Part shown: one piece after another, positions 40,185 to 45,539 of the stretch
Layout of the letters: each line of letters begins with the position of its first letter
Position numbering within the stretch: position 1 is the stretch's first letter
DNA from: Methyloversatilis discipulorum
Lineage (GTDB): Bacteria > Pseudomonadota > Gammaproteobacteria > Burkholderiales > Rhodocyclaceae
Length of the DNA: 64,000 nucleotides
Assembly: GCF_000385375.1 (NCBI RefSeq)
Contig: NZ_ARVV01000001.1
Location: 4,030,001-4,094,000, forward strand
Direction of reading: 5' to 3'
Notes under the pieces: model-generated
What the model was told of the DNA's origin: nothing
Databases searched by the model: none
The model's input: the letters and a program-made list of their open reading frames with translations, nothing else
Translations under genes and position numbers: made by a program

Positions 40185-40913
40185 TCAGGCAGCCGGCTGT
40201 TCTTCCGCCCGCTTGCCGTCGTCGGCCACGCGTTCAAGCCGGTAACCATAGTTGTAGGTGGAGGCGAGGCGGTAGCCATTTTCCGGCCGCAGCGCGAGCT
40301 TGGAGCGCACGCGCGACATGTGGGTATCGACGGTGCGCGTCGGCACGTCGCCCTTGCGGCCCCACAGCGATTCGAGCAGATGACCGCGCGATACCAGGCG
40401 GCCGACGTTGCGGAACAGGAAGACGGCCAGTTCGAACTCGCGCTCGGTCAGATCTATCACCTCGCCGTTGAGGCGGGCGGTGTGCGAATTCATGTCGAAC
40501 TGGTAGGGCGCGGCATCGATCACCGGCTGGTCGGCCGGCGGGCGGCTGCGCCGCAGCACGGCTTCGATCCGGGTGAGCAGTTCCATGCGTCGCGCCGGCT
40601 TGACGATGTAGTCGTCGGCGCCCGCTGCCAGCGCAGTCACGATGTCGTTCTCGTCCTGCCGGGCGGTGACGAAGATGACCGGGGTCGTCAGCCCGCGCTC
40701 GTTGCGCAGCCAGCGCAACACGTCGGCGCCCGGCAGATCGGGCAGTTCCCAGTCGATCAGCAGCAGGTCGTAACTTTCCCGCACGGCTTCGCGCATCAGG
40801 TCGCGCGAGCGCATGAAGGTGTGAATGTCATGGCCGGCGGCACGCAGCCAGCTGCCAAGGATTTCGACCTGTACCGGGTCGTCTTCGAGCAATGCTATTC
40901 GGGCGGTCTGCAC
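40185..40913 (-). CDS. OmpR-family response regulator (orphan)
   Basis: The 242-residue protein has a receiver domain (acidic E10-D11-D12, phospho-acceptor D54 in LLIDWELPD, K105-type Lys in YIVKPARR) and a winged-helix DNA-binding domain (about 135-230; LTEREFELAVFLFRNVGRLVSR, RTVDTHMSRVRSKL). No histidine kinase gene is adjacent, so its partner and regulon are unknown. Confidence 0.88.
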   Translation of the reverse strand: MQTARIALLEDDPVQVEILGSWLRAAGHDIHTFMRSRDLMREAVRESYDLLLIDWELPDLPGADVLRWLRNERGLTTPVIFVTARQDENDIVTALAAGADDYIVKPARRMELLTRIEAVLRRSRPPADQPVIDAAPYQFDMNSHTARLNGEVIDLTEREFELAVFLFRNVGRLVSRGHLLESLWGRKGDVPTRTVDTHMSRVRSKLALRPENGYRLASTYNYGYRLERVADDGKRAEEQPAA

Positions 40914-41040
40914 GGCGATTCTGTATCCGTAGGAAATAACCGGTTCAGAAAGCGTTCACGGCACGCGCAACGCGGACTGAAGGGTGACTGTGTAATTTCG
41001 TGACCTCCGGCCTGTAAGGCAGTATGCCCCAGTGTGCGGG

Positions 41041-41526
41041 TCAGCGCATCCGTTCGCCATCGAACAGACCGAGCATCCAGTCCAGCCAGCGCCGCGCCGG
41101 CTCACCATCGGCCGGTGCCCAGGACGCGAATTCGGCCTCGGTCAGCGCGCGGTAGGGGCCGGCTTTCGCCTCGAACATGACAGAACCGGGTTCGAGTGCC
41201 ACCAGACTGTGAAACTGACCGTGCGCGATATCGACGCCGAAGCGCTCGCCATCGGGCGCCAGCACGCAGGTTTCCTGCACCGCACCGCTGTCGTCGAAAA
41301 GGATGCAGCCCAATCGACCCTTCACGCAGAGGATGGTTTCATCCTTCAGCGGATCGAGATGTCGGTGGGGTCTGACATAGCTGTCGGGTTCGATGGCATT
41401 GAGCAGGCGGTGCGCCGGGTGATCGTCGTGTGGATGGAAGTTGCGGTTCATCCGCCGGCGCGGACTGCGCTGCGCCTCGGCAACCACGGTGTCGAGCAGT
41501 GCCCGGTCCAGCCAGCGCGCGCTCAT
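41041..41526 (-). CDS. wbuC: WbuC-family cupin metalloprotein
   Basis: The 161-residue cupin has the WbuC N-terminus (RRRMNRNFHPHDDHPAHRLLNAIEP split) and metal-binding cupin histidines in YVRPHRHLDPLKDET and GQFHSLVALEPGSV. WbuC proteins often lie in O-antigen or exopolysaccharide clusters, but none is near. The ATG at 41526 overlaps the stop of the last mini-ORF of the 83-bp repeat array, with GGAGG 8 bases upstream, so its translation may be coupled to that array and through it to dnaE. Confidence 0.85.
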   Translation of the reverse strand: MSARWLDRALLDTVVAEAQRSPRRRMNRNFHPHDDHPAHRLLNAIEPDSYVRPHRHLDPLKDETILCVKGRLGCILFDDSGAVQETCVLAPDGERFGVDIAHGQFHSLVALEPGSVMFEAKAGPYRALTEAEFASWAPADGEPARRWLDWMLGLFDGERMR

Positions 41527-41609
41527 GCCACGACCCTCCGGTCACTGCGTGACCACCTCCCCGAGGGAGGACGAGCGCCCTCTTCGGGCGGCCGGGCGAG
41601 GGCGCTCAT
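41523..41609 (-). CDS. Mini-ORF F of the repeat array (28 codons), overlapping wbuC
   Basis: It carries the two synonymous changes of D plus ATC to GTC (Ile to Val) near the C-terminus. Its TGA at 41523-41525 overlaps the wbuC ATG. The GGAGGG inside it serves as the wbuC ribosome binding site. Confidence 0.3.
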   Translation of the reverse strand: MSALARPPEEGARPPSGRWSRSDRRVVA

Positions 41610-41692
41610 GCCACGATCCTCCGGTCACTGCGCGACCACCTCCCCGAGGGAGGACGAGCGCCTTCTTCGGGCGGCCGGGCGAGGGCGCTCAT
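41606..41692 (-). CDS. Mini-ORF E of the repeat array (28 codons)
   Basis: It is identical to A-C in sequence and layout, with ATGA overlaps to D and F. Confidence 0.3.
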   Translation of the reverse strand: MSALARPPEEGARPPSGRWSRSDRRIVA

Positions 41693-41775
41693 GCCACGAT
41701 CCTCCGGTCACTGCGTGACCACCTCCCCGAGGGAGGACGAGCGCCCTCTTCGGGCGGCCGGGCGAGGGCGCTCAT
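41689..41775 (-). CDS. Mini-ORF D of the repeat array (28 codons)
   Basis: Its two base differences from A are synonymous (GAA to GAG for Glu, TCG to TCA for Ser), so the peptide is unchanged. It has a GGAGGA site and ATGA overlaps. Confidence 0.3.
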   Translation of the reverse strand: MSALARPPEEGARPPSGRWSRSDRRIVA

Positions 41776-41858
41776 GCCACGATCCTCCGGTCACTGCGCG
41801 ACCACCTCCCCGAGGGAGGACGAGCGCCTTCTTCGGGCGGCCGGGCGAGGGCGCTCAT
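41772..41858 (-). CDS. Mini-ORF C of the repeat array (28 codons)
   Basis: It encodes the same peptide as A and B, with its own GGAGGA and ATGA overlaps at both ends. Confidence 0.3.
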   Translation of the reverse strand: MSALARPPEEGARPPSGRWSRSDRRIVA

Positions 41859-41941
41859 GCCACGATCCTCCGGTCACTGCGCGACCACCTCCCCGAGGGA
41901 GGACGAGCGCCTTCTTCGGGCGGCCGGGCGAGGGCGCTCAT
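41855..41941 (-). CDS. Mini-ORF B of the repeat array (28 codons)
   Basis: It encodes the same peptide as A, with GGAGGA 7 bases before its ATG and ATGA overlaps at both ends. Translation is inferred only from this arrangement. Confidence 0.3.
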   Translation of the reverse strand: MSALARPPEEGARPPSGRWSRSDRRIVA

Positions 41942-42024
41942 GCCACGATCCTCCGGTCACTGCGCGACCACCTCCCCGAGGGAGGACGAGCGCCTTCTTC
42001 GGGCGGCCGGGCGAGGGCGCTCAT
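41938..42024 (-). CDS. Mini-ORF A of the repeat array (28 codons)
   Basis: The ATG overlaps the dnaE stop (ATGA) and the ORF begins MSALARPPEEG and ends RRIVA. Its TGA overlaps the ATG of mini-ORF B. No ribosome binding site of its own is visible inside dnaE, so it would depend on coupling. Whether it is translated is unknown. Confidence 0.3.
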   Translation of the reverse strand: MSALARPPEEGARPPSGRWSRSDRRIVA

Positions 42025-45000
42025 GCGTACGCCACCGATACCGCGTCGGCCGGCAGCCAGTCGCGCAGACCGTCGAACAGCGCGTCGTCTAGCCTGACCC
42101 GCCACGGATCACCGAAATCGAGCGGCGCGACGGCGTCGTTGCTGCGGTAGTGCAGGCGGACCGCGCAACCGCTTTCGGTACGGAAGGGTTCGAGCAGGCT
42201 GCGCAGCCGGGCGCAGGCGGCGTGCGCGCCGAGCGTCGCCACTTCGCCGTTCAGCTTCAGTTCGAGCCGGCGCGCGAAGCGGGCCCGCGCCTCGCCGGCG
42301 CTGAGCAGGCTGTCGGCGACGACGCGCATCGAGTTCGAGTACTCGTCGAACTGCGCCCGGCCCTCGACCACCAGCACCTCGTCCTCGCGCAGCTTGTTGC
42401 GCGACGCTTCGTACAGCTCGTTGAATACCGACACCTCGATCTGCGCCGTACCGTCGTCGAGCGCGACGAAGGCCATCTTGCCGCGACGCGTCATCTGCAC
42501 GCGCGAGCTGACGACCAGCCCCGCCACCACGGTCGGGTCACGCGAAGACTCAAGCTGCGCCAGCTTGCGCCGGGCGAAGCGCGAAAACTCCTGCGCGTAG
42601 CTGTTGTAGGGGTGGCCGGACAGGTAGAAGCCGAGCGCCTGCTTCTCGTTGGCCAGCTTTTCGCGCTCGCTCCACGGCTTGACCTGCACGTACTCCGGCG
42701 CGCGCGCGCCGGTGCCGCTCGGGGCGTCGTCGAACAGACCACCCTGATGCGCGTTGGCCGCCGCCTGTTCGGCCGCCTCCATCGCCAGCGCGACGCTGCT
42801 CATCAGCGTGTTGCGGTCGTGCGGCGTGCCGGCGATGGTCGCGTCGAAAGCACCGGCGCGGATCAGCGCCTCGATGGTGCGACGGTTCACCATGCGGCGG
42901 TCAACGCGCAGGCAGAAGTCGAAAATGTCCTTGAACGGCCCGCCCGACTTGCGGGCTTCGAGGATGCAGTTCACCGCCTGTTCGCCGGTGCCCTTGACCG
43001 CGCCCAAGCCGTAGCGGATTTCGCTGCGCGACACCGGCACGAAGCGGTATTCGGACTGGTTCACGTCCGGCGGCAGGATGGTGAGACGGTTCTTCTTCGC
43101 GTCCAGGTAGAAAATGTTCACCGTGTCGGTGTTGTCCATGTCGGACGACAGCGACGCGGCCATGAAGGCGGCGCAGTGGTGGGCCTTCAGCCAGGCGGTG
43201 TGGTAGGTGACGACGGCATAGGCGGCGGTGTGCGACTTGTTGAAGCCGTACTCCGCGAACTTGGTCATCAGGTCGAACAGCTGTTCGGCCAGTGCCGGGT
43301 CGTAGCCCTTCTCCTTCGCACCGGCGGCGATGGTCTCCCGGTGCTTGGCCATTTCCTCGGGCTTCTTCTTGCCCATGGCCCGGCGCAGCATGTCCGCACC
43401 ACCGAGCGTATAGCCGCCGATGATCTGCGAAATCTGCATCACCTGTTCCTGGTACACGATGACGCCGTAGGTCGGCGACAGGCAGGCTTCCAGGTCCGGG
43501 TGGAAATAGTCGATCGCCTGCTGGCCCTTCTTGCGCAGGATGAAGTCATCCACCATGCCCGAGCCGAGCGGGCCCGGGCGGTACAGCGCCAGCACGGCGA
43601 TGATGTCTTCGAAGCGGTCCGGCGCGAGCTTGCCGAGCAGCTTCTTCATGCCCTCGGATTCAAGCTGGAAGATGGCGGTGGTGTTCGCGTCCTTCAGGAT
43701 CTGATAGGCGGCCGGGTCGGTGAAGGGCAGGCTCAGCAGGTCCGGCCTCTCGCCGGTCATGCGCTCGATGTAATCGACCGCCAGTTCGATAATCGTCAGG
43801 TTGCGCAGGCCGAGAAAGTCGAACTTCACCAGACCGATGGCTTCGACGTCGTCCTTGTCGAACTGGCTCACCGGCGAGGCGTCGTCGCCGTCCTGCTGGT
43901 AGAGCGGGCAGAAGTCGGTCAGCTTGCCCGGCGCGATCAGCACGCCGCCGGCGTGCATGCCGACGCCGCGGGTCAGGCCTTCCAGCGGTTCGGCCAGGCG
44001 CAGCAGTTCGCGCACCTCCTCTTCCGCCTGTTCGCGCTCGGCCAGCTGCGGCGCCTGTTCGCGCGCCTCGGCCAGCGACAGCGGCTTGTTCTGCACCACC
44101 GGAATCAGCTTCGACAGCTGGTCGCAGAAGTTGTAGCCCATGTCGAGCACGCGGCCGACGTCGCGGATGACCGCGCGCGACGCCATCGTGCCGTAGGTGG
44201 CGATCTGGCTCACCGCGTCTGCGCCATACTTCTGGCGCACGTACTCGATCACCTTCCAGCGGTTGTCCTGGCAGAAGTCCACGTCGAAGTCGGGCATAGA
44301 CACCCGCTCCGGATTCAGGAAGCGCTCGAACAGCAGCGCGTAGGCAAGCGGATCGAGGTCGGTGATGCCGAGCGAGTATGCGACCAGCGAACCGGCGCCG
44401 GAGCCGCGGCCCGGACCGACCGGCACGCCGTTCTTCTTCGCCCAGTTGATGAAGTCGGCCACGATCAGGAAGTAGCCCGGGAAGCCCATCTGGATGATGG
44501 TGTCGCACTCGAACTTGAGCCGCGCCTCGTATTCCGGCCGCTTCTGTTCGCGCACCGTCTCGTCCGGATAGAGCTGGGCCAGACGCTTCTCCAGGCCTTC
44601 CTTTGCCTCGGCGATCATGAAGTCGTCGATGGTCATGCCGGGCGGCGTCGGGAACTGCGGCAGGTAGTTCTTGCCCAGCGTCAGCGTCAGGTTGCAGCGT
44701 CGCGCCAGCTCGACCGCGTTGTGCAGCGCCTCCGGAATGTCGGCGAACAGCTCGGCCATTTCGGCCGAGGTCTTGAAGTACTGCTGCTCGGTGAAATCAC
44801 GCGGCCGGCGCTTGTCGCTCAGCACATAGCCCTGGGCGATGCAGACGCGCGCCTCGTGCGCCTTGAAGTCGTCCGGCGACATGAACTGCACCGGGTGCGT
44901 CGCCACCACCGGAATGTCCATTTCGGACGCCAGCGCGCAGGCGTCGGCGATATAGGTTTCGGTGTTCGGGTGGCCGGCGCGCTGCAGCTCGATATGGAAG

Positions 45001-45539
45001 TCGCCGTCGAACAGCCGCAGCCATTCGGCCGCCGCGCGGCGAGCCGAATCCATATTGCCGGCCAGCAGCGCCATGCCGACGTCGCCCAGCATGCCGCCCG
45101 ACAGCGCGATCAGACCGGCCGTGCCTTCGCCGTCGCGCTCCAGCCACTCGCGGCGCAGTTCGGCGCGGCCGCGGTACTTGTTCTCCAGGTAGGCGCGGGT
45201 GAGCAGCCGGCACAGCGTGCCGTAGCCCTCGCGGTTGCGCGCCAGCAGCAGCAGGCGATGCGGCTTGTCGCGCTCGGCGTCGTTGCTGACATAGACATCG
45301 ACCGCGCAGATCGGCTTCACGCCCTTGCCGCGCGCCGCCTTGTACAGCTTGACCAGGCCGAACACGTTGGCGAGATCGGAAATGGCGATGGCCGGCATGC
45401 CGTCCTTCGCGGCGGCCTTGACCGCAGCGTCAACGGTGACGATGCCGTCGACCACCGAGTACTCGCTGTGGATGCGCAGGTGGACGAAAGGTGGGGGGGC
45501 CTCGGCGGCCGGGGAGAGGGTGGTGCTGTCGGAGCTCAT
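42021..45539 (-). CDS. dnaE: DNA polymerase III alpha subunit
   Basis: The 1172-residue replicative polymerase subunit has an N-terminal PHP domain (FVHLRIHSEYSVVDG), the palm with catalytic D417 and D419 in MPDFDVDFC, GRGSGAGSLVAY, the fingers, a helix-hairpin-helix region (VNRRTIEALIRAGAFD) and a C-terminal OB-fold (VVAGLVVSSRVQMTRRGKMAFVALDD split) for DNA contact. It is full length for the DnaE1 class. Its stop overlaps the first mini-ORF of the 83-bp repeat array. It diverges from the quinoprotein gene across 86 bp. Confidence 0.97.
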   Translation of the reverse strand: MSSDSTTLSPAAEAPPPFVHLRIHSEYSVVDGIVTVDAAVKAAAKDGMPAIAISDLANVFGLVKLYKAARGKGVKPICAVDVYVSNDAERDKPHRLLLLARNREGYGTLCRLLTRAYLENKYRGRAELRREWLERDGEGTAGLIALSGGMLGDVGMALLAGNMDSARRAAAEWLRLFDGDFHIELQRAGHPNTETYIADACALASEMDIPVVATHPVQFMSPDDFKAHEARVCIAQGYVLSDKRRPRDFTEQQYFKTSAEMAELFADIPEALHNAVELARRCNLTLTLGKNYLPQFPTPPGMTIDDFMIAEAKEGLEKRLAQLYPDETVREQKRPEYEARLKFECDTIIQMGFPGYFLIVADFINWAKKNGVPVGPGRGSGAGSLVAYSLGITDLDPLAYALLFERFLNPERVSMPDFDVDFCQDNRWKVIEYVRQKYGADAVSQIATYGTMASRAVIRDVGRVLDMGYNFCDQLSKLIPVVQNKPLSLAEAREQAPQLAEREQAEEEVRELLRLAEPLEGLTRGVGMHAGGVLIAPGKLTDFCPLYQQDGDDASPVSQFDKDDVEAIGLVKFDFLGLRNLTIIELAVDYIERMTGERPDLLSLPFTDPAAYQILKDANTTAIFQLESEGMKKLLGKLAPDRFEDIIAVLALYRPGPLGSGMVDDFILRKKGQQAIDYFHPDLEACLSPTYGVIVYQEQVMQISQIIGGYTLGGADMLRRAMGKKKPEEMAKHRETIAAGAKEKGYDPALAEQLFDLMTKFAEYGFNKSHTAAYAVVTYHTAWLKAHHCAAFMAASLSSDMDNTDTVNIFYLDAKKNRLTILPPDVNQSEYRFVPVSRSEIRYGLGAVKGTGEQAVNCILEARKSGGPFKDIFDFCLRVDRRMVNRRTIEALIRAGAFDATIAGTPHDRNTLMSSVALAMEAAEQAAANAHQGGLFDDAPSGTGARAPEYVQVKPWSEREKLANEKQALGFYLSGHPYNSYAQEFSRFARRKLAQLESSRDPTVVAGLVVSSRVQMTRRGKMAFVALDDGTAQIEVSVFNELYEASRNKLREDEVLVVEGRAQFDEYSNSMRVVADSLLSAGEARARFARRLELKLNGEVATLGAHAACARLRSLLEPFRTESGCAVRLHYRSNDAVAPLDFGDPWRVRLDDALFDGLRDWLPADAVSVAYA

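Follow-up and report, generated by a model that had tools for sequence, protein, structure and literature searches.

Six tandem repeats between dnaE and wbuC of Methyloversatilis discipulorum: a probable expansion of a dispersed, translationally transparent intercistronic element

The genes dnaE and wbuC of Methyloversatilis discipulorum are joined on the minus strand by six tandem copies of a repeat of about 83 bp, which lie within the 64,000-nucleotide stretch of DNA analysed here (the window; contig NZ_ARVV01000001.1, positions 4,030,001 to 4,094,000). This array is probably the six-fold tandem expansion of a translationally transparent intercistronic element and, as judged from sequence, it is the local amplification of an element that is dispersed among Betaproteobacteria.

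Tandem Repeats Finder (TRF) reports an 83-bp unit repeated 6.1 times with 98% matches at 41519–42026, and each of the six minus-strand ATGs (42024, 41941, 41858, 41775, 41692 and 41609) opens a frame of 28 codons whose closing TGA overlaps the following ATG as ATGA. The dnaE stop lies in the first ATGA and the wbuC start in the last, giving seven ATGA links and eight frames; TRF and a reading of the minus strand thus confirm the six-unit chain of 28-codon open reading frames (ORFs), closed at dnaE and at wbuC, that an earlier note on this DNA had described. Five of the six unit peptides are identical (MSALARPPEEGARPPSGRWSRSDRRIVA) and the sixth has V for I, while at the DNA level units 1, 2, 3 and 5 share one sequence, from which unit 4 departs at two bases and unit 6 at three. 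GGAGG stands 8 nt upstream of ATGs 2–6 and of the wbuC ATG (as GGAGGA in units 1–5 and GGAGGG in unit 6), and the first ATG is preceded by the tail of dnaE, without GGAGG. A simple scan of 40900–42700 found no sigma-70-like promoter and no intrinsic terminator. The features of the junction, in window coordinates, are these:

42021..45539, minus strand: dnaE (DNA polymerase III alpha), from the ORF listing, Pfam and NCBIfam NF004226; its TGA lies within the first ATGA.
41942..42024, minus strand: repeat unit 1 (ORF 41938–42024 including the stop; TRF).
41859..41941, minus strand: repeat unit 2 (ORF 41855–41941).
41776..41858, minus strand: repeat unit 3 (ORF 41772–41858).
41693..41775, minus strand: repeat unit 4, the variant with two changes (ORF 41689–41775).
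41610..41692, minus strand: repeat unit 5 (ORF 41606–41692).
41527..41609, minus strand: repeat unit 6, with three changes (ORF 41523–41609); judged by eye, the unit most like the one copy in the sister genomes.
41986..42024, minus strand: predicted stem-loop 1 of unit 1, with the ATGA in its base (single-unit fold and family covariation; likewise in every unit).
41971..41985, minus strand: predicted stem-loop 2 of unit 1, CCTCCCTCGGGGAGG (single-unit fold and family covariation).
41954..41970, minus strand: predicted stem-loop 3 of unit 1, TGGTCGCGCAGTGACCG (single-unit fold and family covariation).
41535..41539, minus strand: GGAGG Shine-Dalgarno sequence of unit 6, 8 nt before the wbuC ATG (an equivalent is found in every unit).
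41041..41526, minus strand: wbuC (WbuC family cupin fold metalloprotein), from the ORF listing, Pfam and NCBIfam TIGR04366; it starts in the last ATGA.

The same unit recurs widely outside the window. Scanning named genomes with a sequence pattern gave 96 stretches, of which 80 were listed, mostly from Rhodocyclaceae, Thauera, Zoogloea, Aromatoleum, Denitromonas, Pigmentiphaga, Verticiella and similar bacteria according to the record titles (L113, L137 and L143 were excluded from the 80 as chance matches). Its parts follow a constant order: RTGA (ATGA or GTGA), stem 1, stem 2 (CCTCCC..GGGGAGG), stem 3, GGAGG, 8 nt and RTG(A). The left RTGA holds the stop of the upstream gene together with a start codon, the base of stem 1 includes the ATGA, and the right RTG(A) is the start of the downstream gene. 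When 45 short copies and two window units were aligned, 93.5% of cells were paired across the three helices, nine pairs showed two-sided changes, and none of 500 shuffles scored as high on any of five measures. A covariance model, R1, was trained on mostly 83-nt copies with a structure drawn by hand from the consensus, and it matched 148 of 295 genomes in the window's bacterial family, from 39 of 62 genera, and in a second family 193 of 300 genomes, from 89 of 115 genera. Because 14 candidates were scored per genome in both searches, and the best matches listed, the family-wide copy numbers are floors; eight genomes scored more deeply gave 7 to 93 matches each. The exact pattern, searched across the order, was found in 5 of 300 genomes, far below what R1 finds within single families. 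A plasmid search gave no match, and Rfam, applied to the window segment and to seven loci of the long form described below, returned no family that matches the element.

Several copies depart from this standard arrangement. A long form, whose central module is 69 nt longer (a multiple of 3) and lies between hairpins 2 and 3, occurs beside the short form (L072, L084, L111, L112, L145 and others). Related copies with GGGGGC ends occur at L031 (G010, ~1490–1580), L477 and L478; those at L031 and L478 are apparently reverse to the genes, with TGACATG or CGCTGATG-like motifs at both ends, and from their sequence the GGGGGC-end copies appear to be a sister type with a different insertion logic.

The position of the element was read in two samples of R1 matches: one of 128 fetched regions, in which the repeats of an array were collapsed and from which G000, G001 and G002 were excluded, and one of 60 copies hand-picked from five of the eight deeply scored genomes (G596, G597, G600, G602 and G603). 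Removing duplicates by their upstream flank reduced the 128 regions to 120 and the pattern set from 85 copies to 81, and one site in different genomes may still be counted more than once. Among the 120 non-duplicate R1 copies, 113 have the left stop, 101 have a right start that opens at least 80 codons and 81 are flanked left and right by long frames. Gene frames were also called from codon-position G+C, and by this call the upstream gene stops at the left TGA in 143 of the 160 non-tandem copies whose upstream frame could be called. In the pattern set of 81, which includes inner array units, a frame of at least 50 codons ends at the left TGA in 61 copies and begins at the right start in 63. 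Both ends carry start signals. Of 125 copies, 67% have a Shine-Dalgarno match of at least 4 nt before the left RTG, compared with 18% at control offsets (standard deviation 5, highest 30%), and a match of at least 5 nt precedes the right start in 89%. Given this enrichment over control offsets, the left RTG can be taken as a real, captured start codon.

Junctions with and without the element can be compared at gshA-gshB, and the result agrees with that at dnaE-wbuC. In the genome with a copy, an ATGAGC stands on either side of the element; of 26 relatives, four overlap at ATGAGC (L335, L338, L339 and L345) and three at ATGAAG. Other palindrome-like spacers with a GTAGGAGCGGGC-like motif occupy this junction in L334, L336 and L337, and are perhaps repetitive extragenic palindromic (REP) elements.

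The length of the element is largely confined to values that keep the genes coupled. The left and right RTG lie 83, 81, 84, 80, 78, 77, 152, 150 or 149 nt apart in 155 of 157 merged copies, the other two measuring 79 and 82. Modulo 3, these lengths fall into class 2, an ATGA-linked mini-ORF (128 copies), class 0, in which the element's frame runs into the next gene (27), and class 1, in which a ribosome would leave the frame (2). The frame of the downstream gene, called from codon-position G+C, gives offsets of 2, 0 and 1 in 96, 35 and 4 of 135 coupled single copies, and in 122, 40 and 7 when every single copy whose downstream frame could be called (169) is counted. Counted as 26 length haplotypes, from which 22 of the 135 copies were unparsed (L237 among them), 16 are by majority class 2, 10 are class 0 and none is class 1. 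The 45 tandem periods are divided among classes 0, 2 and 1 as 32, 12 and 1, with five of the 12 coming from the window itself and with some units missed by the regular expression used for arrays. Frame-restoring pairs of insertions and deletions also occur, in which the spacer loses one nucleotide and the loop gains one. In class-0 copies such as L077, L069, L081 and L101 the unit reads as an N-terminal extension of the downstream protein (of the MSAPARPPEG... type), which is a likely source of annotation artefacts.

The second bacterial family provides a check on this rule. Its lengths are 71, 74, 77, 80, 83, 75, 78, 81 and 84, plus 82, in 148 of 150 listed matches (one partial and one 68-nt match were left out), and only the length of 82 belongs to class 1, with 8 of the 148 listed matches, some of which may be copies reverse to the genes. 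Frames were called at the best locus of each of 30 genomes, one of which (L453) is the same site as L092. RTGA stands at the left in 28 of these 30, and the two loci without it (L477 and L478) look like the reverse-orientation type. The upstream gene could be called for 22 single copies and stops at the element in 19 of them, and among these 19 coupled copies the offsets of 2, 0 and 1 number 17, 2 and 0. The earlier note had read the array as a chain of coupled cistrons, and this reading gains support from a family that sits at stop/start overlaps with a largely frame-keeping length (96 + 35 against 4, and 17 + 2 against 0).

Within the genus, the dnaE-wbuC junction holds six units in the window genome, one in each of two sister genomes (G001 and G002) and none in the other ten of 13 genomes; array DNA was matched in five of the 13, and a wbuC homologue in all 13. 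The single units of G001 and G002 are by eye nearest to window unit 6, and in three relatives (L037, L038 and L039) dnaE and wbuC overlap directly at ATGA with no element between them. Since relatives have this overlap with no element in it, the most economical history has one unit arriving at the junction and then multiplying in the window genome. Comparison of the frame across strains, a test named beforehand in the earlier note, found both single-unit sister genomes in frame and no strain that breaks the frame at this locus; copies of the element that do break it exist elsewhere in the family and are rare. The order of variants along the array, A A A B A B', fits duplication inside the array, as far as sequence can tell. 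Tandem arrays were found at 29 of 174 places, the window array being the longest among the loci of that survey, and because such arrays recur elsewhere the six copies look like the expansion of a variable number tandem repeat (VNTR). In G001 (L036) an additional 14-bp piece precedes the single unit and forms a five-codon ORF that is ATGA-linked on both sides.

We propose that one copy of the element inserted into the ATGA shared by the dnaE stop and the wbuC start. The native start codon (ATGA) would have been kept at the element's left end, and the right end would have provided a new Shine-Dalgarno sequence and RTG(A) start for wbuC. Ribosomes ending dnaE could then restart at the captured start, read through the open body, stop at the next ATGA and restart on wbuC, which would make the insertion nearly silent for translation. 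An insertion of this kind should avoid polarity, and the benefit to the element may be an escape from Rho-dependent polarity (polarity and coupling are described by Brown and Wade, 2025). The other permitted form would be one in which the body of the element is in frame with the next gene. Expansion to six units probably proceeded by unequal recombination between identical ATGAGCGC-bounded units.

How the ends arose and what might move the element were also considered. A plain target-site duplication of RTGA is not supported: RTGA is found at both ends, and the doubling does not look like a simple target duplication, since there is no correlation between the first bases of the left and right copies. 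A duplication, if there was one, may have involved TGA only, and the right RTGA is taken to be element-derived. Likeness between the two ends beyond RTGA is modest (446 matches at positions 6–11, compared with 411, standard deviation 9, in shuffled sets) and is partly due to leftover tandem copies. Y1 transposase matches are present in 8 of 14 genomes, the window genome having one. As a mobilising partner the Y1 transposase was set aside, since several copy-rich genomes gave no match to it and no match elsewhere could be tied to the element.

Several results weigh against the proposal. Of the 26 relatives compared at gshA-gshB, 18 carry a different spacer there, 18–215 nt long (one more is unreadable), which leaves the state of that junction before insertion uncertain. 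The first base of RTGA matches between left and right ends no better than chance (Fisher p = 0.82). No Y1 transposase was found in the copy-rich genomes G396, G446 and G579, and a search around the 12 Y1 matches in other genomes, the window's own among them, gave one weak R1 match (18.5 bits). The frame rule has exceptions. In the second family, 8 of 82 distinct genome-length pairs are class 1, and without the two commonest lengths the figure is 8 of 46 (binomial p 0.03). Three class-1 copies fall within class-2 haplotypes. Of the four class-1 copies among the 135, L237, at 79 nt, is genuine. A TAG starting 7 nt upstream of the start closes its frame, so its coupling may survive; the other three (L194, L291 and L316) have a linked mini-ORF, with a right start that opens only 21–25 codons. 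A cruder call, taking the longest open frame, gave more class 1 (54, 16 and 23 of 93 for classes 2, 0 and 1). It was replaced by codon-position G+C because wrong frames are also open in G+C-rich DNA, and it misassigned L204, which has a clear MacB start; the two methods nevertheless disagree. The copies are moreover related by descent, so that the counts are not independent, a fault that the haplotype count corrects in part. Finally, variability by codon position within the body is weak (0.60, 0.50 and 0.69 bits at positions 1–3), and this signal is confounded by the RNA stems.

The readings that compete with a transparent element explain parts of this evidence. It is possible, though unlikely, that the RNA is conserved rather than the frame, with the hairpins affecting the stability or processing of the mRNA or its local termination. 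The ORF would then be incidental to G+C-rich sequence and to a few master copies whose lengths happened to suit. The strong covariation in all three helices suits this explanation, an open frame alone is to be expected in DNA so rich in G+C, and a few ancestral lengths could have been amplified. However, the length changes almost only within two frame classes, and does so across two bacterial families; insertion at stop/start overlaps and a Shine-Dalgarno sequence at both ends would be needless for a stabiliser of mRNA, and no intrinsic terminator turned up at the array in the simple scan. Slightly less likely again is that copy number serves as an adaptive dial, the units passing on part of the ribosomes or adding initiation and so setting the output of wbuC. 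Every unit does have its own GGAGG and copy number does vary between sister genomes (6, 1 and 1), but arrays also occur at other, unrelated gene pairs, there is no sign that wbuC is special, and the junction holds 0, 1 or 6 units within one genus; in the sequences compared, no sign of wbuC tuning was seen.

A function for the 28-residue peptide itself seems very improbable. It is recognisably alike across genomes (MSAPARPPEGGALPPSGRMSRSDRRVVQ type), yet its middle is read in two frames according to lineage (GALPPSGRMS and RANLPRGGCRV), about a quarter of copies (35 of 135) fuse the frame to the next protein, and third-position bias is weak. The earlier note had also kept chance as a real alternative, a single accidental ATGA-flanked 83-bp segment having been duplicated. 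Part of this stands, in that duplication does copy the link from one ATGA-flanked unit and a single unit has a fair chance of an open frame, but the unit itself is no local accident: the arrangement recurs in many copies of the element, at other genes and in other genera, and an origin by chance and copying is insufficient for a family found at stop/start overlaps with mostly frame-keeping length. We therefore give it next to no weight. Returning to the transparent element, a broader proposal is only somewhat favoured over its negation: that Betaproteobacteria harbour a MIRU-like (mycobacterial interspersed repetitive unit), probably independent class of translationally transparent mobile RNA/DNA element, which would target stop/start overlaps, capture the native start, bring a ribosome-binding site and be kept by selection at lengths of 2 or 0 modulo 3, and which, in one large family or more, would be present in the majority of the genera sampled.

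Among known systems, MIRUs are found in tandem with variable copy number. A 2025 review presents them as repeats that seem to be mobile, go in at start codons and contain an ORF coupled at −4 nt. The present element resembles them in start-codon insertion and in an ORF coupled by a −4 nt overlap (here from position and frame only), as well as in its tandem, variable copy number (0, 1 and 6 units; 29 of 174 places tandem). It is unlike them in its host, which is non-mycobacterial and of a different phylum, the comparison with MIRUs being by description and not by sequence. Three covarying hairpins, a strong Shine-Dalgarno sequence of its own, two frame classes and short and long forms characterise the present element, a list drawn from its side of the comparison.

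A repeat already described from Betaproteobacteria comes closer in host and length. The Beta-proteobacterial repeat element (BRE) is, in the section of Hot et al., 2011 (PMC3110155) that deals with it, 75–91 bp long and G+C-rich, with copies in Bordetella and Comamonadaceae and one in Azoarcus. The same section reports tandem arrays of up to eight whose number varies between strains, some copies that overlap ORF ends by a few bases and others within coding sequence, and 4 of 13 Bordetella loci between convergent genes; it calls the element possibly mobile and leaves its function open (PMC3110155). The present element is likewise a dispersed, G+C-rich betaproteobacterial repeat of similar length with tandem VNTR arrays, and it probably belongs to the BRE family, the two having been compared by description and not by sequence. 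Stop/start insertion, the frame rule, RNA structure and the captured start have no counterpart in that section of PMC3110155, and start-codon insertion logic for betaproteobacterial repeats was not found described in the literature searched.

Other short repeats differ in their logic. Rickettsia palindromic elements are mobile-looking palindromic repeats that keep the frame of the host gene (PMC10969869). They lie within genes in frame, whereas the present element is mostly at gene junctions with stop/start coupling. REP elements, bacterial interspersed mosaic elements (BIMEs) and miniature inverted-repeat transposable elements (MITEs) are, like it, short, dispersed, palindromic and non-autonomous. 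It differs from them in that several copy-rich genomes have no Y1 transposase match and none elsewhere could be tied to it, and in a doubled RTGA that does not behave like a four-base target duplication. HEARO RNA and IscB elements prefer ATGA/GTGA sites. The HEARO model (RF02033) matched none of 14 genomes, in a search whose controls were silent too, and was not found in the seven long-form loci or in the window segment.

These comparisons suggest that the MIRU trick of inserting at a coupling site while keeping the coupling is not confined to mycobacteria and recurs widely in Betaproteobacteria. They also offer an explanation of why copies of a repeat family, still without an assigned function in 2011, sit where they do and have the lengths they have. 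Copies of the element form a natural series (0, 1, 2, 3 and 6 units; frames 2 and 0, rarely 1) that would allow termination-reinitiation to be measured in real operons. For annotation they carry a warning, as the units create spurious small ORFs and N-terminal extensions.

Two minor observations concern the surveyed loci. L079 and L085, labelled Phycisphaerae, share their site and flanks with L125 and L115, which are labelled Thauera and Burkholderiales, and on account of these shared flanks the L079 and L085 contigs are probably misbinned. At the long-form locus L084, a guanidine-II (mini-ykkC) riboswitch was matched above the gathering score at L084:4251–4294.
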